Positions 17,210-32,112 of a stretch of 64,000 bases of DNA are shown here, in pieces. Origin of the DNA: Comamonadaceae bacterium (GTDB lineage: Bacteria; Pseudomonadota; Gammaproteobacteria; Burkholderiales; Burkholderiaceae_C); the NCBI GenBank assembly GCA_947450695.1, contig CANFWV010000003.1, positions 62,001-126,000 on the forward strand, given 5' to 3'. The position numbers were made by a program, and so were the translations under genes. The notes beneath the pieces are model-generated. The model was not told the DNA's origin. It saw only the letters and a list, made by a program, of their open reading frames with translations, and did not search any database. Each line of letters starts with the position of its first letter. Within the stretch, counting starts at the first letter, position 1.

Positions 17210-17988
17210 GCGCGGTCTCCCTTTACGCGAAAGCATCGACGGACTTCGATGCTAAGCTGGCCGAAACCATCGCGCTCTTGAAGCGTGCGTCCCAAGAGTT
17301 TTCGCCCTTGACGCAAGCCTCCAGCTTGGGTGCAGAAGACATGGTCATCACCCACTTGCTGGCTGAGCACCGCATCGATTGCAGTATTTTTGTGCTCGAA
17401 ACCGGCATGCTGCACCCACAGACCGTAGCGATGATTGGCCGCATTGAGGCGCGCTACGCCCGCCCGGTTGAAGCTTATCGTCCGGTTGTAGAAGTCGCCG
17501 CTGAATTCGTCAGCACACATGGCGACAAAGCCATGTACCAGAGCGTTGACCTGCGCAAAGCCTGCTGTGGCATCCGCAAGATGGAGCCACTGGGCCGCGC
17601 GCTGGCTGGTAAAAAAGGTTGGTTGACGGGCCTGCGCCGCGAGCAGTCAAACGCCAGGGCGGAAGTCGAGTTCATTGAGCACGAGTTGGTCGGGCAACCG
17701 GGCGAGCGTGCCAAGGTCAACCCGCTCGCGCGTTGGACCGCCGGCGATGTTTGGCATTTCATCGGCATCAACAACATCCTCTACAACCCGCTGCACGACG
17801 AGTTTTTCCCGAGCATCGGTTGCGCGCCTTGCACCCGCGCCGTCACGCTGGGTGAAGACATCCGCTCCGGCCGCTGGTGGTGGGAGCAGGAAAGCGCCAA
17901 AGAGTGCGGCCTGCATGTGTCTGACAGCGCCGACGGTCAGACATCCGCCATTTCATCCATCATTCCCATCAAAGAGGTCTCCGCGTGA
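17206..17988 (+). CDS. cysH: Assimilatory adenylyl-sulfate (APS) reductase
   Basis: A 260-residue CysH-family protein that reduces APS to sulfite and AMP. The pairs Cys120-Cys121 (KACCGIRK) and Cys206-Cys209 (GCAPCT) ligate the 4Fe-4S cluster and mark an APS-specific enzyme rather than the cluster-free PAPS reductase. The nucleophile Cys234 lies in the ECGLH motif, and SSLGAED forms the phosphate loop. No cysC (APS kinase) gene is present beside it, consistent with direct APS use. Overlaps cysD by a GTGA junction. Confidence 0.94.
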   Translation: MSAVSLYAKASTDFDAKLAETIALLKRASQEFSPLTQASSLGAEDMVITHLLAEHRIDCSIFVLETGMLHPQTVAMIGRIEARYARPVEAYRPVVEVAAEFVSTHGDKAMYQSVDLRKACCGIRKMEPLGRALAGKKGWLTGLRREQSNARAEVEFIEHELVGQPGERAKVNPLARWTAGDVWHFIGINNILYNPLHDEFFPSIGCAPCTRAVTLGEDIRSGRWWWEQESAKECGLHVSDSADGQTSAISSIIPIKEVSA

Positions 17989-18947
17989 ACGCTGTAGCCG
18001 AAGCCACCGTGCTGACTCAAGCCCAAAACCACCCCCAGCTGAGCAATGCCCACTTGGACGCTTTAGAAGAAGAAGCAATTTTCATCTTACGTGAAGTCGC
18101 GGCTGCTTTCGAGCGCCCGACCCTGCTTTTTTCTGGCGGGAAAGACTCGCTGGTGCTGCTCAAATGCGCTGAAAAAGCTTTTGTCGACAGTACCCGTGGC
18201 GGCCACATTCCCTACCCGTTGCTGATGATCGACACCGGCCACAACTTCCCTGAAGTGACGGCTTTTCGCGACTACCGGGCCAAGCAACTCGGTGCCAATC
18301 TGATTGTCCGCAACGTCGAAGATTCGATGAAGCGCGGCACTGTTCGACTGGCGCACCCAGACGAGCCGCGTAACGTACACCAGTCGGTCACATTGCTAGA
18401 GGCGATTGAAGAGTTTCGCTTTGACGCCCTGATTGGCGGCGCCCGCCGTGACGAAGAAAAAGCCCGTGCCAAAGAGCGAATTTTTTCGCACCGTGACGCC
18501 TTCGGTCAATGGCAGCCCAAAGCCCAACGCCCAGAGTTGTGGAACCTGTTCAACACGCGCTTGCAGCCGGGTGAGCACTTTCGCGTGTTCCCGATTTCCA
18601 ACTGGACCGAACTCGACGTCTGGCAATACATCGAGCGCGAGAAGATCGAACTGCCGTCGCTGTATTACGCGCACCAACGCACGGTGGTTGAGCGCAAAGG
18701 TCTGCTGGTGCCGGTGACCGACCTCACACCTTTGAAAGCGGGTGAAAACGCGGTGGATAAAACCGTGCGCTTTCGCACCTTGGGCGACATCACCTGCACC
18801 TGCCCGGTTGAGAGCCCAGCAGCCAACCCCGCCGAAGTGGTGCTGGAAACGCTGACGGCAGACGTCAGCGAGCGCGGTGCCACCCGCATGGACGACAAGA
18901 CTTCCGACGCCTCGATGGAGAAGCGCAAAAAAGAGGGTTATTTCTGA
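17985..18947 (+). CDS. cysD: Sulfate adenylyltransferase subunit 2
   Basis: A 320-residue PP-loop ATP pyrophosphatase subunit of ATP sulfurylase, which joins sulfate to ATP to give APS. The SGGKDS loop is at residues 50-55, and the MIDTGHNFPEV and GGARRDEEKARAKER blocks match CysD. The start is a GTG overlapping the cysH stop (GTGA), and the end overlaps the cysN ATG by one base (TGATG), so cysH, cysD and cysN appear translationally coupled. Full length and intact. Confidence 0.96.
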   Translation: MNAVAEATVLTQAQNHPQLSNAHLDALEEEAIFILREVAAAFERPTLLFSGGKDSLVLLKCAEKAFVDSTRGGHIPYPLLMIDTGHNFPEVTAFRDYRAKQLGANLIVRNVEDSMKRGTVRLAHPDEPRNVHQSVTLLEAIEEFRFDALIGGARRDEEKARAKERIFSHRDAFGQWQPKAQRPELWNLFNTRLQPGEHFRVFPISNWTELDVWQYIEREKIELPSLYYAHQRTVVERKGLLVPVTDLTPLKAGENAVDKTVRFRTLGDITCTCPVESPAANPAEVVLETLTADVSERGATRMDDKTSDASMEKRKKEGYF

Positions 18948-20284
18948 TGAGCACGATTCTTCAAACCAGCAGCCCAGATGTTGCTGACAACGCATCTTTC
19001 AACGTCGAGCAAGACACCCGCGCAGCCCTGCGCTTTGTCACCTGCGGCAGCGTCGACGACGGCAAGAGCACGCTGATCGGTCGCCTGTTGGTCGACTCCC
19101 GCGCCGTGCTGCAAGACCAACTGGCCAGCGTGCAACGCAGCGGCAAGGTCGACCTAGCCCTACTGACCGACGGCTTGCAAGCTGAGCGCGAACAAGGCAT
19201 CACGATTGATGTGGCCTACCGCTACTTCAACACGGTCGCCCGCAAATTCATCATTGCCGATGCGCCCGGTCATGAGCAGTACACCCGCAACATGGTTACG
19301 GCAGCGTCCAGCGCCGACGCGGCCGTGGTGCTGGTCGACGCCACCAAACTAGATTGGCAGTCAGCACTGCCCAAACTGTTGCCGCAAACACGCCGTCATT
19401 CGCTGCTGGTGAAATTGCTGCGTGTGCCGTCCATCGTCTTCGCTGTCAACAAACTCGACGCTGTGGAAGACCCTGCGCTGGCGTTTGAACACATCAGCGC
19501 CGCGCTTCGGCAGTTCACCCAAGAGGCTGGCATCAGCGCACAAGCCATCGTGCCGGTGTCGGCCCTGATTGGCTACAACGTGGTTGACGCCCATCCCGGC
19601 TGGTGCAACTACCAAGGCCCGGCCTTGCTGGCCATTTTGGAGCAACTGTCGGCCACACCCGCTGACACCGCCCAGCCCTTCAGCTTTCCAGTGCAATGGG
19701 TTGAGAAGTTTTCTTCCAGCGCCGACACCTCACAAGGACGGCGCATTTTCTGGGGCCGCATTGCCAGCGGCGCGGTGCAAGTCGGCCAGAGCGTCAGCGT
19801 CTTGCCTGGCGGCAAAAGCGCTGTGGTAGCCGAGGTACTGGACCATGCGCGTTCGCCGAAATCGGTGCGTGCAGGCCACAGCGCCGGCATCATCTTGGAC
19901 CGCGAACTCGACGTGTCACGCGGCGACGTGCTGTTGGCCGCCGAAGGCTTTGGCGCATCACCCGGCAAGCGTGAGCTGACCGCAACCATCGCCTGGATGG
20001 ACGAAGAACCTTTGCTACCCGGCCGCGTGTATTGGGCCTTGCAAGGTCACCGCTGGGTCAAGGCCAAGGTCAAGCGCATCGTGCACCAAGTGAACATCAA
20101 CACGCTGGAAGAGCAAGCGGCGACGCAACTTGACGCCAACGCCATCGGCGTGGTCGAGCTGACCCTGCAAGAGCCGATCGCCGCGGAGCCCTTTGCTGAA
20201 TCGCGCATTCTGGGCTCGCTGGTGCTGGTCGATACCGCCTCGCACAAGACCTCCGGTGCCGCATTGATTCTGTCGGCTCAATAG
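18947..20284 (+). CDS. cysN: Sulfate adenylyltransferase subunit 1 (GTPase)
   Basis: A 445-residue EF-Tu-like GTPase that drives ATP sulfurylase. The P-loop GSVDDGKST is near residues 34-42, the G3 motif DAPGHEQY and G4 motif NKLD are present, and beta-barrel domains follow. The length fits CysN alone with no fused APS kinase (CysC), in keeping with the APS-reductase route. It is the last gene of the tightly packed cys block; fdxA begins 86 bases later. Confidence 0.96.
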   Translation: MSTILQTSSPDVADNASFNVEQDTRAALRFVTCGSVDDGKSTLIGRLLVDSRAVLQDQLASVQRSGKVDLALLTDGLQAEREQGITIDVAYRYFNTVARKFIIADAPGHEQYTRNMVTAASSADAAVVLVDATKLDWQSALPKLLPQTRRHSLLVKLLRVPSIVFAVNKLDAVEDPALAFEHISAALRQFTQEAGISAQAIVPVSALIGYNVVDAHPGWCNYQGPALLAILEQLSATPADTAQPFSFPVQWVEKFSSSADTSQGRRIFWGRIASGAVQVGQSVSVLPGGKSAVVAEVLDHARSPKSVRAGHSAGIILDRELDVSRGDVLLAAEGFGASPGKRELTATIAWMDEEPLLPGRVYWALQGHRWVKAKVKRIVHQVNINTLEEQAATQLDANAIGVVELTLQEPIAAEPFAESRILGSLVLVDTASHKTSGAALILSAQ

Positions 20285-20370
20285 ATTTAAACCAGCCTTT
20301 CAACCCTCCCCTTAGCCCTCCCCTGGAAAGATCTTAAAATCTAGGGTTTTACCGACCGAGCCAAAAAAGC

Positions 20371-20700
20371 ATGACCCACGTCGTTTCTGAATCCTGTATC
20401 CGTTGCAAGTACACCGACTGTGTGGATGTGTGCCCCGTCGACTGTTTCCGCGAAGGTCCCAACATGTTGGTGATCGAGCCTGACGAGTGCATTGACTGCG
20501 CCGTCTGCATTCCTGAATGCCCGGTCAACGCGATTTATGCAGAAGAAGACTTGCCCGCAGACCAGCTCAACTTCATCAAGATCAACCTTGAGTTGTCAAC
20601 CCAGCCAGGCTGGAAAAGCATCACCAAGCGCAAGCCGGCTTTGCCAGATGCAGAAGAATGGAAAGACAAGACCGGTAAGCTCAGCGAACTCATTCGCTGA
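20371..20700 (+). CDS. fdxA: 7Fe-8S ferredoxin FdxA
   Basis: A 109-residue ferredoxin with the two-cluster pattern [17 protein letters not shown] and [12 protein letters not shown] of the Azotobacter FdI/FdxA type, binding one 3Fe-4S and one 4Fe-4S cluster, followed by a C-terminal extension typical of proteobacterial FdxA. It is a soluble one-electron carrier. Lying between the cys genes and a ferredoxin reductase, it is a plausible electron donor to the sulfite reductase, although this is inference from position only. Confidence 0.95.
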
Positions 20701-20719
20701 TTTTTTGACGGCCGATCCA

Positions 20720-21781
20720 GTGACACCCACAGTGATCGAAACCGATGCCGTCATCATCGGCGCGGGGCCGGTCGGCTTGTTTCAGGTCTTCCAGCTCGGC
20801 CTGCTGGAGATCAAGGCCCATGTGATAGATTCGCTGGCCTACGCGGGCGGCCAATGCATTGAGCTGTACCCCGACAAGCCCATCTATGACATTCCGGCCA
20901 TGCCGGCGACCACCGGTCGCGAACTCACAGTGTCACTGCTGCGGCAGATTGGGCCCTTTGGCGCGACCTTTCATTTCGGGCAAGAAGTCAGCACACTTGA
21001 CAAGCAAACCGATGGTCGGTTTTTGCTGGTGACGAACAAAGGTACGAGCTTTTTAACCAAGACGATTTTTATCGCTGCCGGTGTCGGTGCATTTCAGCCG
21101 CGTCTGCTTCGCGTCGAGGGCTTAGACAAATTTGACGAGACGCAACTTTTTTACCGCGTGAACAAGCCAGCAGACTTTGCGGGGCAAGACTTGGTGATCG
21201 TCGGCGGTGGCGATTCAGCCATCGACGCGGCCATCGACTTCGCCACAGCAGGCCCCAACCAAGCCAAGAGCGTGACCCTGGTGCATCGCCGTGACAGCTT
21301 CCAAGCACTGCCGGCCAAAGTCGCTGAAATGAAAGCCTTGTGCGCGGCCTCCGCCATGCACTTCATGGCCGGCCAAGTCACCAGTTACGACGAAAAAAAA
21401 GGCCGACTGAGTACCGCCAACGTCACTGACCCCGAGGGTGTCACGCACGCGCTGCCTGTTGAAAAGCTGCTGGTGTTTTTTGGCTTGTCCCCCAAGCTCG
21501 GGGCCATTGCCGACTGGGGTCTGGCCATTGAACGCAAGCAACTCACGGTCGACACCGAAAAGTTTTCGACCAGCGAGCCAGGCATTTTTGCGGTCGGCGA
21601 CATCAACACCTACCCCGGCAAGAAAAAGCTGATTGTGTGCGGCTTCCATGAATGTGTGCTGGCCGCTTTTGGCGCTGCACCGATCATCTTTCCAGACAAA
21701 ACCATCCCACTGCAATACACCACCACCAGCACCAAGTTGCACAAGGTGCTGGGCGTTGAGAAGCCTATCTCAAGCGACTAA
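20720..21781 (+). CDS. Thioredoxin-reductase-like ferredoxin-NADP(+) reductase
   Basis: A protein of about 353 residues with two Rossmann domains: the FAD site [19 protein letters not shown] near the start and the NADPH site [17 protein letters not shown] in the middle, ending with the [18 protein letters not shown] segment. It lacks the CxxC disulfide of thioredoxin reductase, which marks the TrxR-like ferredoxin/flavodoxin reductases. The start is uncertain: GTG 20720 or TTG 20705 fit best, since no ATG occurs before the FAD motif except inside fdxA in another frame. It likely pairs with FdxA encoded 20 bases upstream. Confidence 0.87.
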
Positions 21782-21845
21782 AACTCAACTTGTGCAACAG
21801 CCCTTGACGGCGCATTACAATTCACAGCGTTCGCAAGAACCATTC

Positions 21846-21930
21846 GCTAGGGGTGCTGTCGTCACGAAAGTGGCAACGGCTGAGAAAGTCCCTTTGAACC
21901 TGATTGAGGTAATCCTCGCGCAGGGAAGCC
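21846..21930 (+). promoter_or_regulatory. TPP riboswitch (THI element) 1
   Basis: The conserved blocks GGGGTGC, GGCTGAGAAAGTCCCTTTGAACCTGAT and GAGGTAATCCTCGCGCAGGGAAG appear in the right order and spacing for a thiamin pyrophosphate aptamer. It lies 78 bases before the LuxE-like start codon. TCCCTG at 21984-21989 is complementary to CAGGGA in the aptamer 3' strand (21921-21926), which could allow alternative pairing and control of translation. It directly ties the following six-gene operon to cellular TPP. Confidence 0.93.
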
Positions 21931-22007
21931 AGTTTGACAACGACCGTCTCTGCATCAGAGTACGTCCTCGTTAGCCACCAGCCTCCCTGCCAAAAATGGG
22001 ACAGGAC

Positions 22008-23102
22008 ATGCCAAACGGCAGCATAACTTCTGAAGACATCGCCAGTGAATTGCTGGCGTTCATCTCGCGCCCAACCGTCAGCGATGTTGACTTCAATGAT
22101 CTGGCGTTGCGCCTATTTGCCCGTCAGTTCGCTCTCAACCTGCCCTTTCAGCGCTTTTGCCAACTGCGCGGCAATACCCCGCGGCTGGTGAAAAGTTGGC
22201 GCGACATTCCGGCCGTGCCGATCGATGCCTTCAAAGAGTTCACGCTGAGTTGCGTCCCTGCAGAGGAATGCGAACGCGTCTTCATGACCAGCGGCACGAC
22301 TCGTGGCGAGGTCAAAGGCCGACACCACCACCCGAACTTGGCGGTGTATGACGCCTCCATGCGGCGCCACTTCAGCGAACACTTCATGCAAGGCGATGCA
22401 CGCCTGCCGATGGGCATTTTGTTCCCAACAGAAAACGTGATGCATAACTCTTCGCTCGCCCACTACTTGAGCTTAGCAATGCAGCATTTTGGGACTGCCG
22501 ACAGCGCTTATTACTTGGACCAGAACGGCCTGCACACCGACGCGCTATGTGCCGCCCTGCAAAAGGCCGCGCAGTCGGGCCAAGCCTTTGCCATGTTGGG
22601 GGCGAGCTACAGCTTTGTTCATCTGCTGGATGAACTGCAGACCCGCGGGCAGTCATTTGTCCTGCCCAAGGGGAGCCGCATCCTCGACACCGGTGGCTTC
22701 AAGGGCCAGTCGCGGGATATTCCGATGGAAGATTTTTACGCCCAGTTGTCAGCCACCTTTGGCGTCGACCGGCGTCAGTGCATCAACATGTACGGCATGA
22801 CGGAGCTGAGCACGCAGTTTTATGACGCCGGCAACCGCAGCGTTCCTTCAGTCAAGCGCGGGCCGCACTGGATGCGGTCACGCTTGCTCGACCCGATGAC
22901 GGGCCAAGAAGTCGCCCGAGGCGAACGCGGTGTGTTGGCGCACACTGATCTGGCCAACGTCAATTCAGTCACGACCATCCTGACGGAGGACGTAGGCGTC
23001 GCCACCGACGATGGATTTGTCTTGCTCGGTCGGGCTCAAGGTGCAGAGGCTAAAGGCTGTTCCCTGGCCGTTGAAGATTTTTTGAAAGCTGCACGCGGAT
23101 GA
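22008..23102 (+). CDS. LuxE-like acyl-protein synthetase under TPP riboswitch control
   Basis: A protein of about 364 residues from the LuxE/acyl-protein synthetase branch of adenylate-forming enzymes, which activate a carboxylic acid as acyl-AMP and transfer it to a protein cysteine. The phosphate loop FMTSGTTRGEVKGRHH (about residues 92-107) and the NMYGMTELSTQFYDAG block are visible. ATG 22008 is preferred because GACAGGA precedes it; an ATG at 21996 is in frame but lacks a ribosome site. No luxA or luxB is near, so this is not bioluminescence. I infer activation of a carboxylated thiamin precursor. Confidence 0.85.
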   Translation: MPNGSITSEDIASELLAFISRPTVSDVDFNDLALRLFARQFALNLPFQRFCQLRGNTPRLVKSWRDIPAVPIDAFKEFTLSCVPAEECERVFMTSGTTRGEVKGRHHHPNLAVYDASMRRHFSEHFMQGDARLPMGILFPTENVMHNSSLAHYLSLAMQHFGTADSAYYLDQNGLHTDALCAALQKAAQSGQAFAMLGASYSFVHLLDELQTRGQSFVLPKGSRILDTGGFKGQSRDIPMEDFYAQLSATFGVDRRQCINMYGMTELSTQFYDAGNRSVPSVKRGPHWMRSRLLDPMTGQEVARGERGVLAHTDLANVNSVTTILTEDVGVATDDGFVLLGRAQGAEAKGCSLAVEDFLKAARG

Positions 23103-24586
23103 TGACCACCGCCAACAAAGAAGACTTCAAAAATGAAGTCTTCAAAGCGGGTTACCTGCCCGGCTTGAGGGACGACGAAGTTCGCTGGAAGCCTATTCAA
23201 CTGGGCACCCCCAATCATGCGCTGACGGTGGAGGTCCCAGAGCTCAGCAAAGACCAACTCAAAACCCTCGCCAGTCGCATTCGTCACGCCAGCCGGGCGC
23301 ATTTGAAGTCATGGCCCGTCTCGGACATCATCCGCACCATTGACACCGCCATCGCGCGCTTGCTGAACGCACACGACCCTTACCGCCAAGCCTTCGAGCG
23401 TCTGTTGCCACGTGCTACAGGCTTTGACGCCACCATGGTGCGGCTAGGTTTGAACAGCTACTTGCAGACTTTTCGAGCGCTGCAGCTACAGCGCTTTGTC
23501 ACCGAAGACTTTGCCAATCCCAAACTGCTCGACGAATTCCAAGCCCGACCCAAAGGCGGCTGGAGCAAGGCCATCGGCCCCGAACTGCTGGTCCATGTCT
23601 GGGCTGGCAATGTGCCTGCCCTGCCCTTGTGGAGTTTTGTGTCTGGCCTGCTGGTGAAAGCCGGTGCCATCGGCAAAATCTCCAGCTCAGAACCGATTTT
23701 TGCCAGCCTCTTTGCACGGCTGCTGGTCGAGGTCGAGCCACGCTGGACTGACTGCTTCGCCGTGGTCTGGTGGCAAGGCGGTAACCCAGACCTTGAGCGC
23801 TGCGTCTTTGCCGAGGCCGACGTGGTGATGGCCTACGGCGGCAACACAGCGCTACGCGGCATGCAAGACCGGATGCCGGTGACCACACGTTTCTTGCCGC
23901 ACGGCCACAAGCTCAGTTTTGGTATGGTCTCGAACGCTGCTTTATCAGTCCTGCGGGGGCAAGCCACTGCGCGTGCCTCGGCGCTGGATGTTGCGCGTTA
24001 TGACCAGCAAGGTTGCTACTCCCCGCATGTGTTTTTTGTGCAGCGTGGTGGGCAAGTGCAGCCCGCTGAATTTGCGCAGCGCTTAGCCAGCGAGCTGGCG
24101 GCACTAGCGACTAAATTTACACGCCGCGCGTTAACACTCGAGGAAGCGGCCAGCGTAGCAAGTTGGCGCGAGCTTCAAGAATTTGAAAGCATCAGACAAA
24201 CAGCTCACCGCGTGCTGGGCGACGCCTCGCAGCCCTTCACTGTCGTCTACGCCGACACACCGCAGCCTCTGCTGCCTGGTCCGCTGAACCGCTGCGTGCT
24301 AGTCGTCGCCGTGAACTCGCTGCAAGACGTGATCCCGTTGATTGAGCCCCAACGTGCCTACTTGCAAACAGTTGGCTTGGCCGCCGCGCCCGAAGAACTG
24401 CTGGCGCTGGGTGACGCTCTGGGACAGGCCGGCGTCACTCGCATTTGCGCCTTGGGTGCGATGACATCACCCGAAGCCGGCTGGCATCACGACGGCCGTT
24501 TCAGCTTGCTGGACTTGGTGCGCATGGTCGACATCGACCAATCCGCTGAACTGACGGCTGAACGTTTCACTCGCTACGAGCTTTGA
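23099..24586 (+). CDS. LuxC-like acyl-CoA/acyl-protein reductase
   Basis: A 495-residue LuxC-family NADPH-dependent reductase, an aldehyde-dehydrogenase-fold enzyme that takes an acyl thioester to the aldehyde. The presumed acyl-carrying cysteine is Cys306 in DQQGCYSPHVFFV, and VHVWAGNVPALPLWSFVSGLLVK resembles the nucleotide-binding block. It overlaps the LuxE-like gene (ATGA at 23099-23102), matching the known LuxE-to-LuxC acyl hand-over. Its presence behind a TPP riboswitch is the unusual point. Start 23099 or the adjacent ATG 23102. Confidence 0.85.
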   Translation: MMTTANKEDFKNEVFKAGYLPGLRDDEVRWKPIQLGTPNHALTVEVPELSKDQLKTLASRIRHASRAHLKSWPVSDIIRTIDTAIARLLNAHDPYRQAFERLLPRATGFDATMVRLGLNSYLQTFRALQLQRFVTEDFANPKLLDEFQARPKGGWSKAIGPELLVHVWAGNVPALPLWSFVSGLLVKAGAIGKISSSEPIFASLFARLLVEVEPRWTDCFAVVWWQGGNPDLERCVFAEADVVMAYGGNTALRGMQDRMPVTTRFLPHGHKLSFGMVSNAALSVLRGQATARASALDVARYDQQGCYSPHVFFVQRGGQVQPAEFAQRLASELAALATKFTRRALTLEEAASVASWRELQEFESIRQTAHRVLGDASQPFTVVYADTPQPLLPGPLNRCVLVVAVNSLQDVIPLIEPQRAYLQTVGLAAAPEELLALGDALGQAGVTRICALGAMTSPEAGWHHDGRFSLLDLVRMVDIDQSAELTAERFTRYEL

Positions 24587-24587
24587 C

Positions 24588-25343
24588 ATGATGCGCTTTC
24601 TAGACATTGACAGCGTTCACTACGCCTACCCCGGCCGGGGCGAGGTCGTGCGCGGCGCCAGTCTGCACATCGCGCCCGGCGCTTTTCATTGCCTGATTGG
24701 CCGCAGTGGTTGCGGCAAGACAACCTTGCTCAAACTCGCCGCAGGTTTGCTGCAACCGCAGCATGGTGCGATAGCGTTGCAAGGAATGCCGGTTACAGAG
24801 CCTAACCCAGATATGGGTTTTGTCTTCCAGACGCCGACCTTGCTGGACTGGCTCACGGTGTTGGACAACGTGTTGTTGCCGATCGCTCTGCATGCGCAAG
24901 TTCAAGCTGGCCAGCGTCAAAAGGCCATGGCGTTGCTTGATCAACTCGGTTTGAACAGGCAGAGCGGTCTGCAGTCGCGCTATCCGCAACAGCTCTCAGG
25001 CGGGCAACAAAGCCGTGTCGCGATCGCTCGAGCCCTGATCACCACGCCGCCGATGTTGTTCATGGACGAGCCGTTTGCATCGCTAGACGCCATCACGCGC
25101 AGTGAGTTGCAACAAGACTTGCTGGCGCTCTGCCAAAGTCAAGGCACCTCGGTCTTGTTCATCACGCATGACATCGCTGAAGCGGTCTATCTGGCGGACC
25201 ATGTCAGCGTCATGCACGCTGGCAAGATATGCCATCAACTGGCCATTGACTTGCCACATCCGCGCCAGCACGCTATTCGCTACACGGCCGACTTCAACAC
25301 CCTTTGCGCCGAACTGCGTCAAGCCATGGATGAGACTGCGTGA
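24588..25343 (+). CDS. ABC transporter ATP-binding protein (thiamin-precursor importer, inferred)
   Basis: A 251-residue ABC ATPase of the nitrate/sulfonate/THI5-type importer group. The Walker A GRSGCGKTT, the Q-loop FVFQTPTLLDW, the signature LSGGQQSRVAIARAL, Walker B MLFMDEPFASLD and H-loop ITHD are all intact. It starts one base after the LuxC-like stop and ends in a one-base overlap with the permease. TPP-riboswitch control and the NMT1-like binding protein point to uptake of a pyrimidine or thiazole compound (ThiZ-like). Confidence 0.93.
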   Translation: MMRFLDIDSVHYAYPGRGEVVRGASLHIAPGAFHCLIGRSGCGKTTLLKLAAGLLQPQHGAIALQGMPVTEPNPDMGFVFQTPTLLDWLTVLDNVLLPIALHAQVQAGQRQKAMALLDQLGLNRQSGLQSRYPQQLSGGQQSRVAIARALITTPPMLFMDEPFASLDAITRSELQQDLLALCQSQGTSVLFITHDIAEAVYLADHVSVMHAGKICHQLAIDLPHPRQHAIRYTADFNTLCAELRQAMDETA

Positions 25344-26113
25344 TGCGCCGCGAACACTGGATTTCAGTTGTCATAGCCGTCGGGTTCATCTTTCTGTGGG
25401 AGGCGTGGGTGAGCATGGCCCAGACCTCAGCCTTGGTGCTGCCCGCCCCCAGTGTGGTGGCGCAATCACTTTGGCAGGGTTTGACAAGCGGCTATCTGTG
25501 GCCGCACATTGCTAGCACCACCCGAGCCGTGGTGCTGGGACTTTTGCTAGGCGGCACGGTAGGCTTTGTAGGCGGCATGGTGTTAGGGGAGTCAGCTCGA
25601 TTGCGAGGCATCTTAATGCCTTACGTGGTGATCAGCCAGGTCGTGCCCAAGCTGGCGCTGGCACCACTTTTCATCGTCTGGTTTGGCTTTGGCACCTTGC
25701 CCATCGTGGTCATGACCGCCTTGATTTGTTTTTTCCCCTTGCTAGAAAACACCGCCACCAGCTTGCAACAAGTGGACCCACAGCGGCTGGAGTTGTTTCG
25801 CATGTTGCGGGCCAGCCGATGGCAAACCCTGTGGCTGCTGAAGGTTAGGACTGGCCTGCCCAGCATCATGGCCGGTGTGCGCGTTGCCGTGGTGTTGGCT
25901 TGGGTCGGCGCGGTGGTGGCGGAGTTCATTGGTGCCAGCAAAGGGCTGGGTGCGTTGATCATTGCCGCCCAAGGCTCGATGGACACGCCTCTGATGTTTG
26001 CGGTGTTGATGCTGATCACCCTGATTGGACTGGTGTTTTATAAGTTTGCCGAATGGCTGGAGAGACGTCTGCTTCGGTCTTCAATTGATAATCAACAGAA
26101 AGATGAAAAATGA
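25343..26113 (+). CDS. ABC transporter permease (thiamin-precursor importer, inferred)
   Basis: A 256-residue BPD-type inner-membrane permease (ThiX/SsuC-like). Six hydrophobic segments are visible, and the EAA loop is in the region TATSLQQVDPQRLELFRMLRASRWQTLWLLKV. Start ATG 25343 overlaps the ATPase stop by one base (TGATG); an in-frame GTG at 25340 is the alternative. Its stop overlaps the binding-protein gene by four bases. Expected to form a homodimer with two ATPase copies. Confidence 0.92.
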   Translation: MRREHWISVVIAVGFIFLWEAWVSMAQTSALVLPAPSVVAQSLWQGLTSGYLWPHIASTTRAVVLGLLLGGTVGFVGGMVLGESARLRGILMPYVVISQVVPKLALAPLFIVWFGFGTLPIVVMTALICFFPLLENTATSLQQVDPQRLELFRMLRASRWQTLWLLKVRTGLPSIMAGVRVAVVLAWVGAVVAEFIGASKGLGALIIAAQGSMDTPLMFAVLMLITLIGLVFYKFAEWLERRLLRSSIDNQQKDEK

Positions 26114-27132
26114 AAAACTGGACTGCCAAATTTAAAGAACAAACGTCGCTGCTCGCTATGGCATTGAGCGTTCTGGCTATCAGCGCGCCCACCACCAGCC
26201 TGGCGCAAACACCCGCCCGACTCGACAAGCTGGTGGTCGCCGGCTGGAGCAAACCCATCACCGAAATCACCAACTTACTGGTTGAAGAAGACAAGGGCTT
26301 TTTCAAAGCGCGCGGCATTGAACTGGGCTACGTGCCGGGCGCAGGGGGCGGTGATGCTTTGCGCAACATCTTAAGCGGCCAAGCCGACATTGCCTTCACA
26401 GATCCGGGTTCATTTTTTGCGGCCTTGGACAAAGGTGAACAACTGCACGCCATCTACGACATCTATCCGCAAAACGTCTTCAACGTCGTGTCCCTCAAAT
26501 CAGCCAACATCAACAAGCCAGCCGACCTCAAAGGCAAACGCATTGGCGTTTACAGCCTGTCGAGCGGCACCCGGCAAAACCTTCAGGTCCTTTTGCACGA
26601 AGCCGGTTTGAGCGAATCCGACGTCACCGTGGTGGTGACGGGTTTGTTGAACTTCGCACCGCTGATGCAAGGGCAGGTTGACGCCACCGCCGCCACAGAC
26701 ACCGGCTTACTGGTCGGCAAACAACGCGGCCTAGGCGACGTGAATGTGATGGAAGTCAAAAAACACCTGAACATTTCAAGCGACTTTTTTGTGGTTCGTG
26801 AGGACACCTACCAACAGAAAAAAGAAGTCCTCAAGCGCTTTCTGCTGGCCTACCGTGACAGCGCAAACTGGATGATCAGCGCGCCTGAAGAAGCCGCTAA
26901 GCTGGCCGTCAAATACGCCATCGACGGGCAGAACCCTGCCATCAATATCGAAGTCATCAAGCTGCGCAATCTGTCCAGCGTCTCGGTCAACACGCAAAAA
27001 AATGGGCTTGGTTCTTTTGACATGCTCGCGCTGCAAAAAGGAGCTCAATCCTACAAAGCGTTTGGCGTGATTCAGCGTGACATCAAAATCTCTGACGTCG
27101 TCAGTCAAGACTTATTGCCAGGGAAAAAATGA
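26110..27132 (+). CDS. NMT1/THI5-like periplasmic substrate-binding protein
   Basis: A 340-residue secreted binding protein with a Sec signal ending near SLAQT. The fold group is the NMT1/THI5, SsuA-like family: LLVEEDKGFFKARGIELGYVPGAGGGDALRNILSGQADIAF is characteristic, and KPADLKGKRIGVY follows. Relatives ThiY and THI5-like proteins bind formylaminopyrimidine or other pyrimidines, but sulfonate and nitrate binders share the fold. The TPP-riboswitch context makes a thiamin-related ligand the best inference. Overlaps both neighbours by ATGA. Confidence 0.88.
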   Translation: MKNWTAKFKEQTSLLAMALSVLAISAPTTSLAQTPARLDKLVVAGWSKPITEITNLLVEEDKGFFKARGIELGYVPGAGGGDALRNILSGQADIAFTDPGSFFAALDKGEQLHAIYDIYPQNVFNVVSLKSANINKPADLKGKRIGVYSLSSGTRQNLQVLLHEAGLSESDVTVVVTGLLNFAPLMQGQVDATAATDTGLLVGKQRGLGDVNVMEVKKHLNISSDFFVVREDTYQQKKEVLKRFLLAYRDSANWMISAPEEAAKLAVKYAIDGQNPAINIEVIKLRNLSSVSVNTQKNGLGSFDMLALQKGAQSYKAFGVIQRDIKISDVVSQDLLPGKK

Positions 27133-27911
27133 GCGTAGACCGCCGCCCCTTTCAAGGCAAAGTCGTCTTGGTCACTGGTGCCAGCCGCGGTATTGGCGCG
27201 GCCATTGCCAAGGCGTTTGCACGCGAAGGCGCCATGGTCTTGGTCAACTACCTGCAAAACGCAGCCGCCGCTGACGAGGTGGTACAAGCCTGCCAACAAC
27301 TGGGCGGCGACGCCATGGCCTTGCAGGCCGATGTGCGCGAGCCGCAAGCGGTCACCGCCATGGTCGCGCAGGCGCTGCTGGAAACCGGCCGCATTGATGT
27401 GGTGGTCAACAACGCCTTCAGCCCGTATGGCTTTGACCCCGAGCAGCGCCAGCGTTTTTGGGAACTGCCGTGGGAGGCCTTTCAAACCCAATTCGACGGC
27501 TCGGTGCAAGCCGCCTACAACGTCTGCCAAGCCGTGCTGCCGCACTTCCGGCAACGCACGCAAGGCAGCATCATCAACATGGTGAGTGACTTGGTGGAAC
27601 GCCCGACCGTGGCTTACAACGACTACGCCACCGCCAAGTCAGCCTTGGTCGGTTTCAGTCGACATCTGGCGACGGATTTAGGGCCGCTGGGCATTCGCGT
27701 GAACTGTATCGCGCCCGGTTTGGTGATGCCCACGGAATCAAGTCGCCTGACGCGGGAAGCTGTCAAAGACGCAATCGTGGCGCAAACGCCGTTGGGCCGC
27801 ATCGGCACGCCTGAAGACATCACCGGACCGGTCTTGTTCTTGGCCTCTGACTGGAGCCGATTCATGACCGGTCAGGTGCTGGTGGTCGACGGCGGTTTGG
27901 TGATGAAATGA
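27129..27911 (+). CDS. Short-chain dehydrogenase/reductase (SDR)
   Basis: A 260-residue classical SDR. The cofactor motif TGASRGIGAAIA, the NNA segment, the catalytic Ser in INMVSD, and YATAK (Tyr/Lys) are intact, and DGGLVMK closes the protein. It would interconvert an alcohol and an aldehyde or ketone with NAD(P)H. It is coupled to the binding-protein gene (ATGA at 27129-27132). In the proposed route it would reduce the aldehyde made by the LuxC-like enzyme to a hydroxymethyl or hydroxyethyl group. Its 3' end overlaps the 3' end of thiD by 40 bases, tail to tail. Confidence 0.9.
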   Translation: MSVDRRPFQGKVVLVTGASRGIGAAIAKAFAREGAMVLVNYLQNAAAADEVVQACQQLGGDAMALQADVREPQAVTAMVAQALLETGRIDVVVNNAFSPYGFDPEQRQRFWELPWEAFQTQFDGSVQAAYNVCQAVLPHFRQRTQGSIINMVSDLVERPTVAYNDYATAKSALVGFSRHLATDLGPLGIRVNCIAPGLVMPTESSRLTREAVKDAIVAQTPLGRIGTPEDITGPVLFLASDWSRFMTGQVLVVDGGLVMK

Positions 27912-28744
27912 AGCGGCACAGGCGCAAAACCATGGTTCAAGGGACCATGGCCTAAGCCGGTTTCAACCGCCGCACCGGCAGCAATAGCGGCCAAAATATA
28001 AACTCGCGCTTGTTGCACAGCATCTCGCAGCGGCAGCCCCAGCGCGAGATGCGAGGCAATGGCAGACGACAAAGTGCAGCCCGTGCCGTGCACGTTTTTA
28101 CTGGCGATACGCTCAGAGCGTAAATGCAGCCAAGGCTGGTCGTTCTCGGCCAACACATCCACCACCGCTTGCCCCTGCAAGTGGCCGCCCTTGAGCAACA
28201 CGGCGCGGGCACCCATCGCCATTAAATCGCTGGCGGCTTGCTCCAGCTGGTCCGCACGTTCAATCGGTCTCCCCAACAGCAAAGCCGCCTCGTCAAGGTT
28301 CGGCGTGATCACACTCACCAGTGGAAAAAGCTCTTGCTGCAGCACCTGAACCGTGTCCTGTTCAATCAAACGGTCGCCACTGGTGGCCACCATGACAGGG
28401 TCAAGTACCACGTTCACAAGCTGGTAGTGGCGAATCGCCCAAGCCACGACCTTGACGACTTCCGGGGAATGCAGCATGCCGATCTTCACTGCGTCCACGC
28501 CGATGTCTTCAATGACGGCTTGCAATTGCGCCTTTAAAAACTCAGGTGGTACGGCATGAATACCGCGCACGCCCAGCGTGTTTTGAGCCGTCAGGGCCGT
28601 GATGGCGGTCATGCCGTAGCAACCCAACGCGCTGAAGGTTTTCAGGTCGGCCTGAATGCCGGCACCGCCGCCACTGTCAGAACCGGCAATAGACAAAACA
28701 CGGGCATAGCGGTGGTGAGGGATGGGGAAGGCGTAAGTGCTCAT
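27872..28744 (-). CDS. thiD: Hydroxymethylpyrimidine/phosphomethylpyrimidine kinase
   Basis: A ThiD-family kinase that phosphorylates HMP to HMP-P and then HMP-PP. The N-terminal VLSIAGSDSGGGAGIQADLK and the C-terminal VHGTGCTLSSAIASHLA anion-hole motif are clear. ATG 28744 (MSTYAFPIP) is the likely start; an in-frame Met lies six codons upstream at 28762. It is transcribed toward the LuxE/LuxC operon and divergently from thiO. The TPP riboswitch upstream of thiO is on the opposite strand and does not lie in its mRNA. Confidence 0.95.
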   Translation of the reverse strand: MSTYAFPIPHHRYARVLSIAGSDSGGGAGIQADLKTFSALGCYGMTAITALTAQNTLGVRGIHAVPPEFLKAQLQAVIEDIGVDAVKIGMLHSPEVVKVVAWAIRHYQLVNVVLDPVMVATSGDRLIEQDTVQVLQQELFPLVSVITPNLDEAALLLGRPIERADQLEQAASDLMAMGARAVLLKGGHLQGQAVVDVLAENDQPWLHLRSERIASKNVHGTGCTLSSAIASHLALGLPLRDAVQQARVYILAAIAAGAAVETGLGHGPLNHGFAPVPLHFITKPPSTTST

Positions 28745-28818
28745 CACAAAATTATCGGGCATGTTGCACCGCCTTAAAGCCAGGTAAGCGACTTGTGATG
28801 TAATTCTGGCTACGGATG

Positions 28819-28897
28819 AAACAGGGGTGTCTGGCTTGACAGCCGGTCTGAGAAAAACCCTAAGACCCGATCCAGATCATGCTGGCGTGGGAAGTTT
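28819..28897 (+). promoter_or_regulatory. TPP riboswitch (THI element) 2
   Basis: GGGGTGTC, CTGAGAAAAACCC and CCGATCCAGATCATGCTGGCGTGGGAAG match the TPP aptamer blocks in order. AAAC at 28819-28822 and GTTT at 28894-28897 can form the closing P1 helix. It leads the thiO-thiS-thiG-thiE genes with the thiO start about 60 bases downstream. The open frame continues upstream through the riboswitch, but those codons should not count as protein. Confidence 0.93.
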
Positions 28898-28955
28898 TCA
28901 GACAGCGTCGTTTTTACCCAGCACGCTCTTGTTTTGTCCACCTGCTTTACTTCAG

Positions 28956-30101
28956 ATGGATTCAATGACAACCGCTCCCCGCGCTTCTAGTGTCCCCAGT
29001 GCTCACATGATTGTTCTCGGTGCTGGCCTCATGGGCCGGCTGCTGGCCGTGACGCTGGTCCAAGCCGGCCACAGGGTTGAAGTGCATGAAGCTGGCTCAC
29101 CAGACGCCACCACATCTGCTGCCCGCGCAGCAGCGGCCATGTTGGCGCCGCTAGCGGAATCTGCAGTGACAGAAAACGGCGTGGTTCGCATGGGCAGTCA
29201 CGGCCTCAAACGCTGGCCCGAACTCATCGCGCAGCTGGCACAACCGACCTTTTTTCAACACAACGGCACCTTGATCGTCTGGCACCGTCAAGACGCGGCG
29301 GAGGCCTCGCGCTTTCAGCGGCAACTTGACACTACCGCCCGCGCCATGCCCGAGTTGCAAGCAGCCCAATCGCTGGACGCCGCTGCCATCAGCGCACTCG
29401 AACCCGCGCTAGGTCAGCGCTTTGCGCAAGGCTTGTATTTGCCAGGTGAAGGCCAGCTCGACAACCGACAGCTGCTGGCCGCCTTGCTGCATCAGTTGGA
29501 GCAACTCCAGGTCGAGCTGCACTGGAACAGCCCACGCTCACCCGAAGCGTTTTCGCCCGGCACAGCAGGCCAGCCCGACTGGGTGTTTGACTGCCGTGGT
29601 CTGGGTGCCAAGCCACATTGGCAAGGCTTGCGCGGTGTACGCGGTGAAGTAGTGCGCGTGCATGCACCCGAAGTGACGTTGCTGAGGCCGGTGCGTCTGG
29701 TGCATCCGCGTTACCCGCTTTATATTGCGCCCAAAGAAGAGCATGTTTTTGTGATCGGTGCGACCGAGATTGAATCCGAAGACATGTCACCGGCCAGCGT
29801 GCGTTCCGCGCTTGAATTGCTCAGCGCAGCGTACTCGGTGCACTCGGGCTTTGCCGAAGCGCGACTGCTTGAAATCTCCACGCAATGCCGTCCGACCTTG
29901 ATTGACAACCTGCCCGCTGTGCGCTTCACCGGCGCACGTTCACTGCAAATCAACGGCTTGTACCGCCACGGTTTTTTGATTGCGCCGGCCATGCTCGACG
30001 TCGTGATGGAACTACTGACCACCGGCGACAGCGAGCTGGCGCGCACCTTTGACCTTCGGGTTGAACACCTCTCCAATAGGCCAGCATGCAAATCTTTGTG
30101 A
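28956..30101 (+). CDS. thiO: Glycine oxidase ThiO
   Basis: An FAD-dependent DAO-family protein of about 381 residues. It oxidises glycine to iminoglycine, the nitrogen and carbon donor for the thiazole ring in aerobic bacteria. The FAD motif IVLGAGLMGRLLAVTL lies close to the N-terminus and the C-terminal NGLYRHGFLIAPAM matches ThiO. The start could be ATG 28956, 28965 or 29007; upstream codons belong to the riboswitch leader. The gene overlaps thiS by 16 bases. Confidence 0.9.
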   Translation: MDSMTTAPRASSVPSAHMIVLGAGLMGRLLAVTLVQAGHRVEVHEAGSPDATTSAARAAAAMLAPLAESAVTENGVVRMGSHGLKRWPELIAQLAQPTFFQHNGTLIVWHRQDAAEASRFQRQLDTTARAMPELQAAQSLDAAAISALEPALGQRFAQGLYLPGEGQLDNRQLLAALLHQLEQLQVELHWNSPRSPEAFSPGTAGQPDWVFDCRGLGAKPHWQGLRGVRGEVVRVHAPEVTLLRPVRLVHPRYPLYIAPKEEHVFVIGATEIESEDMSPASVRSALELLSAAYSVHSGFAEARLLEISTQCRPTLIDNLPAVRFTGARSLQINGLYRHGFLIAPAMLDVVMELLTTGDSELARTFDLRVEHLSNRPACKSL

Positions 30102-30283
30102 ACCGCATCCCGCACGACATCGACGCGGCCGCCACGCTTGCCGACGCACTGACCTTGGCCAACGCACGGCCGCCTTTTGCTGCGGCCGTGAACCTGCAGT
30201 TCGTGCCCAAAACCCGATACGCGGCGACGCTGCTACAAGCCGGCGACGAGATCGAAATCATTGCCCCCATCACCGGCGGCTAA
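30086..30283 (+). CDS. thiS: Sulfur carrier protein ThiS
   Basis: A 65-residue ubiquitin-like protein ending in ITGG, the di-glycine tail that is adenylated and converted to a thiocarboxylate to give sulfur for the thiazole. The N-terminus MQIFVNRIPHDI and the EIEIIAPITGG tail are typical. It starts inside the end of thiO and is followed by thiG after 27 bases. Confidence 0.95.
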   Translation: MQIFVNRIPHDIDAAATLADALTLANARPPFAAAVNLQFVPKTRYAATLLQAGDEIEIIAPITGG

Positions 30284-30310: not shown

Positions 30311-31129
30311 ATGAACGACGCTTCAACTTCAGTGGCCGCAGATACGCTGGTCCTCTACGGCGAAACCTTCCAGAGCCGCTTGCTGCTCGGCACGGCGCGC
30401 TACCCGTCGCCCAGCGTCATGGAGGCGGCCCTGCGGCGTGCCAAGCCGGCCATGGTTACGGCGTCACTGCGTCGCCAAGGCGTTGTCACCGCGGACACCA
30501 GCAACGGCTTTTGGGAACTCCTCAAAAAGCTCGGCATTCCGGTGTTGCCCAACACTGCCGGTTGCCACAGCATGCAAGAAGTCATCACCACCGCGCAGAT
30601 GGCGCGCGAAGTTTTTTCGACCGACTGGATCAAGCTCGAACTGATCGGCGACGACTACACACTACAGCCCGACACGCTCAATTTAGTGGAGGTTGCCAGC
30701 CACCTCATCAAAGACGGTTTCAAGGTCTTGCCCTATTGCACAGAAGACTTGGTACTGTGTCGCAAATTAGTCGACGTCGGTTGTCAAGCTGTGATGCCAT
30801 GGGCCGCACCCATTGGCACGGGCAAAGGCCCCATCAACCCCTACGCCATGCGCCTGCTGCGTGAGCGGCTCGACGTTCCCATGATTGTTGACGCCGGGCT
30901 CGGCCTGCCCTCACATGCCTGTCAAGTGATGGAGTGGGGTTACGACGGCGTGCTGCTCAACACCGCCGTGGCACAGGCGCAAGACCCGTTGCTGATGGCC
31001 GGCGCTTTTGCCGATGCCGTGCAGGCCGGCCGCAGCGCACACCGCGGTGGCGTGATGGCAGAGCAAGAAGCCGCACAGCCCAGTACCCCTGTGTTGGGTA
31101 CGCCGTTTTGGCACCACGCTGGCGACTAG
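30311..31129 (+). CDS. thiG: Thiazole synthase
   Basis: A 272-residue TIM-barrel enzyme that combines deoxyxylulose phosphate, iminoglycine and ThiS-thiocarboxylate into the thiazole phosphate carboxylate. Visible blocks are FQSRLLLGTARYPS, the Schiff-base Lys region WIKLELIGDD, and VDAGLGLPSHACQVMEWGYDGVLLNTAVAQAQDP. Full length compared with the family, plus a short Glu/Ala-rich tail. Part of the riboswitch-controlled thi operon. Confidence 0.96.
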   Translation: MNDASTSVAADTLVLYGETFQSRLLLGTARYPSPSVMEAALRRAKPAMVTASLRRQGVVTADTSNGFWELLKKLGIPVLPNTAGCHSMQEVITTAQMAREVFSTDWIKLELIGDDYTLQPDTLNLVEVASHLIKDGFKVLPYCTEDLVLCRKLVDVGCQAVMPWAAPIGTGKGPINPYAMRLLRERLDVPMIVDAGLGLPSHACQVMEWGYDGVLLNTAVAQAQDPLLMAGAFADAVQAGRSAHRGGVMAEQEAAQPSTPVLGTPFWHHAGD

Positions 31130-31152: not shown

Positions 31153-32112
31153 ATGACTAACACGCAACACCCTGTGCAGACTTTGGAGAGCATCGACCAC
31201 GACCGCGCCGTGCAGACAATTGTCAGCACGCATCAAGCTGCTTTCGGTCTTGAAACATCTTCAGCTGCGGTCTACAAATCCGTCAACAACGCTGTCTACA
31301 ACGCCGCCAATGAAGCCTGCTTGCGCATGGGTTTTATCGAGATCGACGCGGACAGTGTCGCCAAGGCCTGGCAGGCTCAAACAGAACGTACCGGCCAGTT
31401 TGACGCGACCCAATGGCCCACAGAACCGAGCGACTTCGGCATTCAGCCTTTGCCTCGAAAAAACAGCTTTGCGCCCTGCCCGCAACAACTCGGTCTGTAT
31501 GCCGTGTTGCCCGATGCGGCGTGGGTCGCACGCATGGCCAGAGCCGGTGTACCCACAGTGCAACTGCGCTTCAAGTCAGAAGAGCCCGCGGCCATTGCGC
31601 ACGAAGTACAAGCCGCCGTCAATGCGGTGCAAGACACGAACGCGCTGCTCTTCATCAACGACCACTGGCAAGCGGCGATTGACGCTGGAGCCTACGGCGT
31701 TCACCTAGGCCAAGAAGACTTGGACACCGCCGACCTGAACGCCATTCGCCACGCGGGACTGCGCTTGGGACTCAGCACCCACGGCTACGCAGAAATAATG
31801 CGAGCCGACGCGCACGCGCCCAGCTACATTGCCATGGGCGCCGTGTTCCCCACCACGCTCAAACGCATGCTCACAGCGCCGCAAGGCACAGGCCGACTGA
31901 GCGCCTATGTCAGCGTGTTATGTGACTACCCACTGGTCGCCATTGGCGGCATTGATGCGGCCCGCTTGCCCGACGTCATGGCCAGCGGTGTCGGTTCTGC
32001 AGCGGTCGTCCGCGCACTGGTGGCGGCAGCTGATCCAGAAACCGAAGCGAGTCGGCTCCAGGCTGAAATTTTGAAACTCAGCCATCAGAACAGCCAAAAA
32101 AGCACGCTATAA
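31153..32112 (+). CDS. thiE: Thiamin phosphate synthase with N-terminal extension
   Basis: A 319-residue protein, whereas typical ThiE has about 210. The C-terminal part from about residue 112 is ThiE: LGLYAVLPD, VPTVQLRFKS, LFINDHWQAAIDAGAYGVHLGQEDL, and the phosphate site at VAIGGID. It joins HMP-PP and thiazole phosphate to thiamin phosphate. The first 110 residues (for example SSAAVYKSVNNAVYNAANEA) form a separate helical-looking region I cannot assign; it may be a lineage-specific extension in Burkholderiales. ATG 31153 has AAAGGAAA upstream. Last gene before tRNA-Asn. Confidence 0.9.
   Translation: MTNTQHPVQTLESIDHDRAVQTIVSTHQAAFGLETSSAAVYKSVNNAVYNAANEACLRMGFIEIDADSVAKAWQAQTERTGQFDATQWPTEPSDFGIQPLPRKNSFAPCPQQLGLYAVLPDAAWVARMARAGVPTVQLRFKSEEPAAIAHEVQAAVNAVQDTNALLFINDHWQAAIDAGAYGVHLGQEDLDTADLNAIRHAGLRLGLSTHGYAEIMRADAHAPSYIAMGAVFPTTLKRMLTAPQGTGRLSAYVSVLCDYPLVAIGGIDAARLPDVMASGVGSAAVVRALVAAADPETEASRLQAEILKLSHQNSQKSTL

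Follow-up and report, generated by a model that had tools for sequence, protein, structure and literature searches.

A TPP-controlled operon joining LuxE- and LuxC-like enzymes to an ABC importer, and its probable role in salvage of the thiamin pyrimidine

The LuxC–LuxE fatty acid reductase of luminous bacteria, known from the structure 7xc6, converts an acid through an acyl-AMP and a thioester to an aldehyde, and the same chemistry is proposed here for a related pair of enzymes. The pair is encoded in a six-gene operon behind a thiamin pyrophosphate (TPP) riboswitch, located in a 64,000-nucleotide stretch of DNA (the window) from a Comamonadaceae bacterium (GenBank assembly GCA_947450695.1, contig CANFWV010000003.1, positions 62,001 to 126,000, forward strand). 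Other parts of the operon recall the ThiXYZ–TenA salvage of formylaminopyrimidine, which likewise has an ATP-binding cassette (ABC) trio with an NMT1/THI5-type binding protein, a TPP riboswitch and 4-amino-5-hydroxymethyl-2-methylpyrimidine (HMP) as its product. The binding protein also belongs to the superfamily of yeast THI5, the HMP phosphate (HMP-P) synthase, which is an enzyme without an importer.

The observations considered here are the riboswitch, the gene set and its conservation, the conserved cysteines of the two Lux-like enzymes, and a genome pattern that points towards the pyrimidine half of thiamin. They suggest that the operon probably performs a TPP-repressed salvage in which a pyrimidine acid is reduced to HMP; we infer each chemical step, the direction in which it runs and the precise substrate. 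Uptake of a carboxylated pyrimidine would fall to the ABC importer and its ThiY-like binding protein. The LuxE-like enzyme would use ATP to activate the carboxyl group, which would then be held at Cys355 as a thioester; from there the acyl group would pass to Cys306 of the LuxC-like enzyme for NAD(P)H-dependent reduction to the aldehyde, and a short-chain dehydrogenase/reductase (SDR) would convert the aldehyde into the alcohol HMP. ThiD would phosphorylate HMP, and ThiE would couple the phosphorylated pyrimidine with the thiazole made by ThiO, ThiS and ThiG. Since activation and two reductions give an alcohol, the most likely substrate would be the acid of HMP, 4-amino-2-methylpyrimidine-5-carboxylate, which forms in the oxidative breakdown of thiamin or HMP. 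This acid is a recorded thiamin metabolite, isolated from rat urine (Neal and Pearson 1964, as cited in PMC7780320). Import and reduction of a thiamin-precursor acid had already been suggested in an initial annotation of the DNA; riboswitch co-occurrence and the genome pattern now support that suggestion, in which the acid-to-alcohol step is the conjectural part.

The riboswitch and the six genes

The TPP aptamer, placed at 21846–21930 in the initial annotation, is matched by the Rfam covariance model RF00059 at 21839–21943 on the plus strand with 64.9 bits, over the gathering threshold of 54.3 (cmscan, E 1.8e-10 for the whole window), and a chance origin is rejected on that score. In the host assembly, which is 92.7% complete, there are two TPP matches in total, this one and another at 28813–28910. 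Six genes on the same strand follow the aptamer, spaced by 4-base overlaps or a 1-base gap, and their positions and Pfam families agree with the run from LuxE-like to SDR described in the initial annotation:

21839..21943, plus strand: TPP riboswitch aptamer heading the operon (RF00059, 64.9 bits)
21996..23102 (start maybe 22008), plus strand: LuxE-like acyl-protein synthetase, proposed to activate the acid as a thioester on Cys355 (PF04443)
23099..24586, plus strand: LuxC-like acyl-thioester reductase, proposed to turn the thioester into an aldehyde with Cys306 (PF05893, 302 bits)
24588..25343, plus strand: ABC importer ATPase (PF00005, ABC_tran; operon position conserved)
25340..26113, plus strand: ABC importer permease (PF00528, BPD_transp_1; operon position conserved)
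26110..27132, plus strand: periplasmic binding protein of the ThiY/THI5 superfamily (NMT1, PF09084, 170 bits; signal peptide judged by eye)
27129..27911, plus strand: SDR, proposed to reduce the aldehyde to the alcohol (PF13561/PF00106)

The folding of the leader fits a mechanism in which TPP would shut off translation. In the predicted free leader, GCAGGGA (21920–21926, within the aptamer) is paired with UCCCUGC (21984–21990), and the purine-rich AGGA at 22003–22006 near the start is open (probability of being unpaired 0.97–1.00). When the region after the aptamer is folded alone, 22003–22005 lie in a hairpin (0.02–0.12). This downstream-only fold serves as a proxy for the TPP-bound form, and it was chosen because imposing the aptamer as a folding constraint changed nothing. 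Two features limit the reading as a translational switch: the LuxE-like gene may start at either 21996 or 22008, and between AGGA and the ATG at 22008 the spacing is short.

The LuxE-like protein scores 75.2 bits against PF04443 (gathering 24.9), and the LuxC-like protein 302 bits against PF05893 (gathering 21). Both miss the NCBIfam equivalog cut-offs for luminescence proteins, at 67.5 versus 550 bits for LuxE and 111 versus 750 bits for LuxC, and are therefore considered relatives rather than members of these groups. The earlier statement that no luxAB lies nearby holds for the six operon genes, among which Pfam finds no luciferase, the rest of the window and the genome being outside that search. 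Profiles built from seven relatives each match the LuxE and LuxC of 7xc6 with E 2e-27 and 1e-28, respectively. Cys355, which is located in a KGCS motif, aligns with residue 364 of the 7xc6 LuxE and is present in 93 of 93 aligned sequences; Cys306, found in 92 of 92, has residue 285 of the 7xc6 LuxC as its counterpart. In the 7xc6 enzymes these regions are the acyl-transfer sites. The last enzyme is a classical SDR, with Gly17 and Gly21 of the glycine-rich motif in all 80 sequences and Tyr166 and Lys170 of YxxxK in at least 98% of them. The NMT1/THI5-type binding protein, permease and ATPase, placed under TPP control, have the gene composition of a ThiXYZ importer.

Conservation, spread and the exchangeable transporter

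In a draw of 300 genomes from the order, LuxE relatives occur in seven: the host, plus six whose LuxE is 60–65% identical. In the host's family they occur in 37 of 399 genomes. A scan of contigs, one genome per species, gave 344 LuxE-related stretches, the best 80 of which are called the named loci; being the best matches, they are biased towards the host's kin. The top one is a Comamonadaceae contig from a metagenome-assembled genome (MAG), and Limnohabitans isolates are among the next. With relatives across the order, the family, the named loci and plasmids, the idea of a gene set confined to a single genome is rejected. All six other carriers of the order have the six genes in the same order. 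The full run is present in 67 of the 80 named loci, and in the other 13 the contig DNA stops at most 109 bases past the last matched gene. Conservation together with the ABC genes, which had been named as a check, is thus seen at those 67 loci, and does not extend to some other carriers in which the ABC genes are absent or replaced. Two differing operon copies lie on contigs of one MAG (L016 and L017), with LuxE 100% and 90% identical to that of the window, and are probably due to mixed strains.

The riboswitch accompanies the genes. A TPP aptamer is located upstream in all six other order carriers, three over the RF00059 gathering threshold and three under it (54.1, 50.7 and 48.6 bits, E 2e-8 to 4e-7). 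From these six aptamers, all of this operon type, we built a covariance model; it gives the window aptamer 30.5 bits and has an upstream match in 73 of the 80 named loci, the weakest at 26.9 bits. RF00059 itself was run on four of the 80 (L020, L021, L024 and L076): the first three have an aptamer with an inserted extra arm and sub-gathering scores of 33.6–38.3 bits (E 6e-4 to 8e-3), and L076, from Geobacillus, scores 63.6 bits. Altogether 77 of the 80 have a TPP aptamer upstream, and the three others (L029, L034 and L068) have fewer than 300 bases there. Among the loci from the family draw (L099–L127), the six-aptamer model matches upstream and LuxC follows LuxE in 29 of 29. Carriers in that draw are defined by LuxE, and LuxC and aptamer are confirmed for 30 of the 37 (these 29 and L005); the remaining seven include G431 and G722, which lack ThiC. 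The expected co-occurrence of homologous operons with TPP riboswitches is therefore found at every examined locus with at least 300 bases upstream, in some cases with sub-gathering scores.

The operon extends beyond Burkholderiales. In the Geobacillus family, LuxE is present in 4 of 41 genomes, L076 included, and each has a TPP aptamer upstream. Contamination of L076 by Burkholderiales DNA is rejected on its GC content of 0.50, its own 63.6-bit aptamer and the occurrence of LuxE in four genomes of the family; neighbouring open reading frames (ORFs) and a lipobox, native-looking by eye only, also disfavour it. Plasmids carry LuxE relatives in 27 records, 13 from Pantoea, nine from Azospirillum and one each from Priestia, Pseudomonas, Niallia, Lactiplantibacillus and Levilactobacillus. 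At all eight plasmid loci examined out of the 27 a TPP aptamer stands in front, seven over gathering and the Priestia one at 49.0 bits. The Pantoea, Priestia and Azospirillum records annotate the pair as 'long-chain fatty acid--CoA ligase' and 'acyl-CoA reductase'. The module is thus real, widespread and TPP-controlled. In a tree of 25 LuxE sequences, rooted at a position chosen by us, Geobacillus and Priestia group with Polaromonas and Rhodoferax (support 0.91), and this placement suggests horizontal transfer of the module.

The gene content of these distant loci separates the enzymes from the transporter. All six genes are present in Azospirillum (two loci) and Priestia. Pantoea and Pseudomonas silvicola have LuxE, LuxC and SDR under TPP control with no adjacent ABC genes, and in Lactiplantibacillus, Levilactobacillus and Niallia the same three genes are joined by a nucleobase-type permease in place of the ABC genes. 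The gene of this permease overlaps the LuxE gene, and the two permeases scanned (Lactiplantibacillus and Niallia) match PF00860. Where the ABC genes are missing, the SDR gene directly follows LuxC. Since the trio is kept while the ABC genes are absent or swapped, LuxE–LuxC–SDR forms the constant core, whereas the transporter can be exchanged.

Several peculiarities were seen at these loci. The LuxE, LuxC and SDR matches of P. silvicola (L137, 8001–11267) each come in two pieces, as decayed genes or sequencing slips. In Niallia taxi (L136, 5763–6059) two tandem TPP aptamers precede the order thiW, NCS2 permease, LuxE, LuxC and SDR. In L134 and L139 the module lies on small plasmids of food lactobacilli, together with a toxin–antitoxin pair and an integrase, and the L. 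brevis one of these plasmids is typed as mobilizable.

As an alternative to salvage, the trio could take part in a new synthesis, in which an acid formed intracellularly (vitamin B6 breakdown being one conceivable source) would be reduced to the HMP skeleton. The Pantoea trio, TPP-controlled with no transporter in the same gene run, agrees with this, and so does the precedent of yeast THI5, where B6 can serve as the HMP source. Set against it are the importer in the operon at 67 of the 80 named loci, the remainder being cut by contig ends, and the operon itself, in which no further pyrimidine-building enzyme is seen; we regard such synthesis as quite improbable and retain the salvage of an imported pyrimidine acid.

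Pyrimidine or thiazole

The thiamin genes next to the operon include the kinase and the coupling enzyme that the proposed route would need. As the initial annotation had stated, ThiD and ThiE are encoded next door, the latter after thiO, thiS and thiG:

27872..28762, minus strand: thiD, HMP/HMP-P kinase (TIGR00097, 328 bits against a cut-off of 205)
28813..28910, plus strand: second TPP riboswitch, heading thiO-thiS-thiG-thiE (RF00059, 57.8 bits)
28827..30101, plus strand: thiO-like FAD oxidase ORF, with the true start probably internal, past the riboswitch (PF01266; position)
30086..30283, plus strand: thiS, 65 amino acids with a GG end (ORF read by eye, between thiO and thiG)
30311..31129, plus strand: thiG, thiazole synthase (PF05690, 332 bits)
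31153..32112, plus strand: thiE, thiamin phosphate synthase (PF02581, 151 bits, residues 122–289)

The SDR gene and the convergent thiD share 40 bases at their ends. At its N terminus, ThiE of the window is extended by about 120 residues that match no Pfam family. Directly upstream of the operon (17985–21781) lie genes for cysD, cysN, a ferredoxin and a pyridine-nucleotide oxidoreductase; these neighbours are kept in the nearest relatives, for example Limnohabitans, and were not seen at most other carrier loci. At L010 (13463–13672), two adjacent glycine riboswitch aptamers are located near the thi cluster.

The host assembly has no match to the pyrimidine enzyme ThiC (PF01964) at its 92.7% completeness and keeps thiO, thiS, thiG, thiE and thiD. 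In the order draw, ThiC is absent from two of the seven carriers, the host and G240 (for the latter, absence means missing from the list of matches), compared with 39 of 300 genomes overall, and it is absent from 23 of 44 genomes hand-picked from the 80 named carriers. The stronger pattern concerns the thiazole synthase: among family genomes without ThiC, full-length ThiG is present in 11 of 12 carriers versus 3 of 44 non-carriers (Fisher p 3e-8), in a comparison that was planned after the ThiC result of the family and covers 44 of the 130 non-carriers without ThiC. The sole carrier without a ThiG match is a genome of 55% completeness. It follows that the ThiC-less genomes examined in the family are mostly without the thiazole branch too, unless the operon is present. 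Full length here means E below 1e-90, a natural break, as the match at 1e-92 is followed by one at 9e-6; looser criteria give higher tallies, 41 of 79 with the Pfam cut-off and 47 of 79 with E 0.001, since many partial matches of about 30–100 of 247 positions are then included. Full-length ThiG is also found in 23 of 23 named ThiC-less carriers, which, with five repeating genomes of the draw, gives 29 of 30 distinct genomes. The contrast between carriers and non-carriers recurs within the genera g215 and g221; in g213, ThiG is present in the carrier, missing from three non-carriers and kept by a fourth, G716.

Gene order and the other thiamin enzymes point the same way. At the named loci, thiD directly precedes LuxE in 18 of 80 and lies convergent after the SDR gene in 16 of 80, and thiE directly follows the SDR gene in 12 of 80; the ThiC-less G240 also has the order TPP aptamer, thiD, LuxE. 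The hydroxyethylthiazole kinase ThiM (PF02110) is below the cut-off in six of the seven order carriers including the host, where thiD itself and one other sequence match weakly at 22.2 bits. Thiamin pyrophosphokinase (TPK, PF04263) was not found in any of the seven, host included, a ThiK-type thiamin kinase being outside the search. The kept ThiG, the placement of thiD and thiE and the order carriers' mostly sub-threshold ThiM and unmatched TPK therefore point to HMP as the product.

These results bear first on thiazole salvage, in which 4-methylthiazole-5-acetate from thiamin oxidation would be imported and reduced to hydroxyethylthiazole. It would use the same acid-to-alcohol chemistry under the same TPP control, and the Niallia operon also has thiW, of a thiamin-precursor transporter family. 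The kinase it would call for, however, exceeds the cut-off in just one of the seven order carriers, which is not the host; carriers without the pyrimidine enzyme still keep ThiG, and it is a pyrimidine enzyme gene, thiD, that stands in front of LuxE at 18 of the 80 loci. We hold thiazole salvage to be quite unlikely. The initial annotation had left a pyrimidine and a thiazole acid open; the pyrimidine is now favoured and the thiazole disfavoured by the kept ThiG, the joined thiD and thiE, the mostly absent ThiM and the nucleobase-type permease.

The binding protein gives a further indication. Its AlphaFold2 model (predicted local distance difference test, pLDDT, 87.5) has as best fold match 3ix1, a formylaminomethylpyrimidine-binding protein (19% identity in the fold alignment), and this binder of a thiamin pyrimidine is counted for the pyrimidine reading; the operon protein's sequence also matches THI5 proteins. 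The second fold match, 4nmy, is a thiamin-bound protein, which would suit a repair of whole thiamin through import of thiamin acetic acid, a known oxidation product, and its reduction back to thiamin. Such repair leaves unexplained both the retention of ThiG in ThiC-less carriers and the joining of thiD and thiE to the operon, and TPK was not found in the seven order carriers (ThiK again aside), which makes it a very unlikely account of the operon in our judgement.

It could also be asked whether the importer works as an ordinary ThiXYZ system for HMP or for aminomethyl- or formylaminomethyl-pyrimidine, with LuxE, LuxC and SDR doing something else, such as lipid aldehyde metabolism. The binding protein does resemble ThiY, and PMC12637900 describes Limnohabitans genomes in which thiC is missing and thiV, thiY and/or cytX are present, and mentions TenA salvage; the operon importer may be what was called thiY there. 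It is nevertheless the trio and not the importer that is constant under TPP control (Pantoea, P. silvicola, lactobacilli and Niallia), and of 30 ThiC-less carriers, 26 gave no match to TenA (PF03070) and four did, the host giving none either. We consider uptake of this ordinary kind unlikely, and reduction of a pyrimidine acid to HMP remains the preferred explanation.

A number of observations weigh against that explanation. Within the family, carriers lack ThiC no more often than non-carriers do (12 of 37 versus 130 of 362, p 0.72), and 25 of the 37 carriers have both ThiC and the LuxE marker of the operon; the operon is therefore no simple ThiC replacement. Three of the 44 ThiC-less non-carriers (G371, G467 and G716) keep full-length ThiG, which may reflect another HMP source or assembly gaps, and four more (G363, G425, G602 and G626) have a partial ThiG over the Pfam cut-off that was left uncounted. 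Related genomes are non-independent, and the statistics take no account of phylogeny. No thi gene is present in the available DNA, often short, of 45 of the 80 named loci. On the protein side, relatives among solved structures were found only in 7xc6, whose enzymes act on long-chain fatty acids; the YGMTE motif, invariant in the operon LuxE relatives, is FNQVE in the 7xc6 LuxE; and the fold of the binding protein is common, with SsuA (alkanesulfonate), TauA (taurine) and THI5 ranking closely behind. Finally, the accessible parts of two environmental vitamin B1 papers, one of them PMC12637900, name the vitamers HMP, AmMP, FAMP, HET and cHET, and a pyrimidine carboxylate is not among them.

Significance and comparison with known systems

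The literature searched contained no paper that, by its title or the opening of its abstract, joins LuxE or LuxC to thiamin salvage (subscription papers and RegPrecise were outside the search, and an earlier mention is possible), in keeping with the first impression that no pathway with this gene set had been described; as far as searched, the enzyme trio is new to thiamin salvage. PMC3766115 lists two beta lineages, Burkholderia and Ralstonia, and reports TPP-regulated transporters in neither. PMC11452348 and PMC12637900 report HMP auxotrophy as the most frequent kind of auxotrophy.

Precursors of vitamin B1 help to decide growth in lakes and seas. If the proposal is correct, a pyrimidine acid would form a B1 resource that goes unmeasured, calls of auxotrophy that rely on thiC would be incomplete, and an enzyme pair of the bioluminescence type would have a second job in vitamin salvage. 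We see about an even chance that the carboxylated pyrimidine is a true circulating vitamer and that a mobile TPP-controlled module with an exchangeable transporter, spread across Pseudomonadota and Bacillota and onto lactobacillus plasmids, reclaims it; in that case the pyrimidine acid could sustain many freshwater bacteria now classed as HMP auxotrophs. With 344 LuxE-related stretches, many annotations could change.

Compared with the described systems, the operon combines familiar parts in a different arrangement. Both Lux-like enzymes align near full length with LuxC and LuxE of 7xc6, with matched cysteines and a common SGT motif in LuxE; unlike that system, the operon has no luciferase, and has a TPP riboswitch in front and an SDR gene after. 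In relation to ThiXYZ–TenA, acid reduction is proposed in place of deamination, in a host with no TenA match. The binding protein differs from THI5 in having a signal peptide (a lipobox in Geobacillus; both judged by eye) and in being encoded within an ABC operon. Among HMP transporters of the CytX and NCS types the likeness is found in the lactobacilli and Niallia, where a nucleobase-type permease in a TPP-controlled operon also precedes LuxE; this permease is of the NCS2 type (PF00860), whereas CytX belongs to another permease family.

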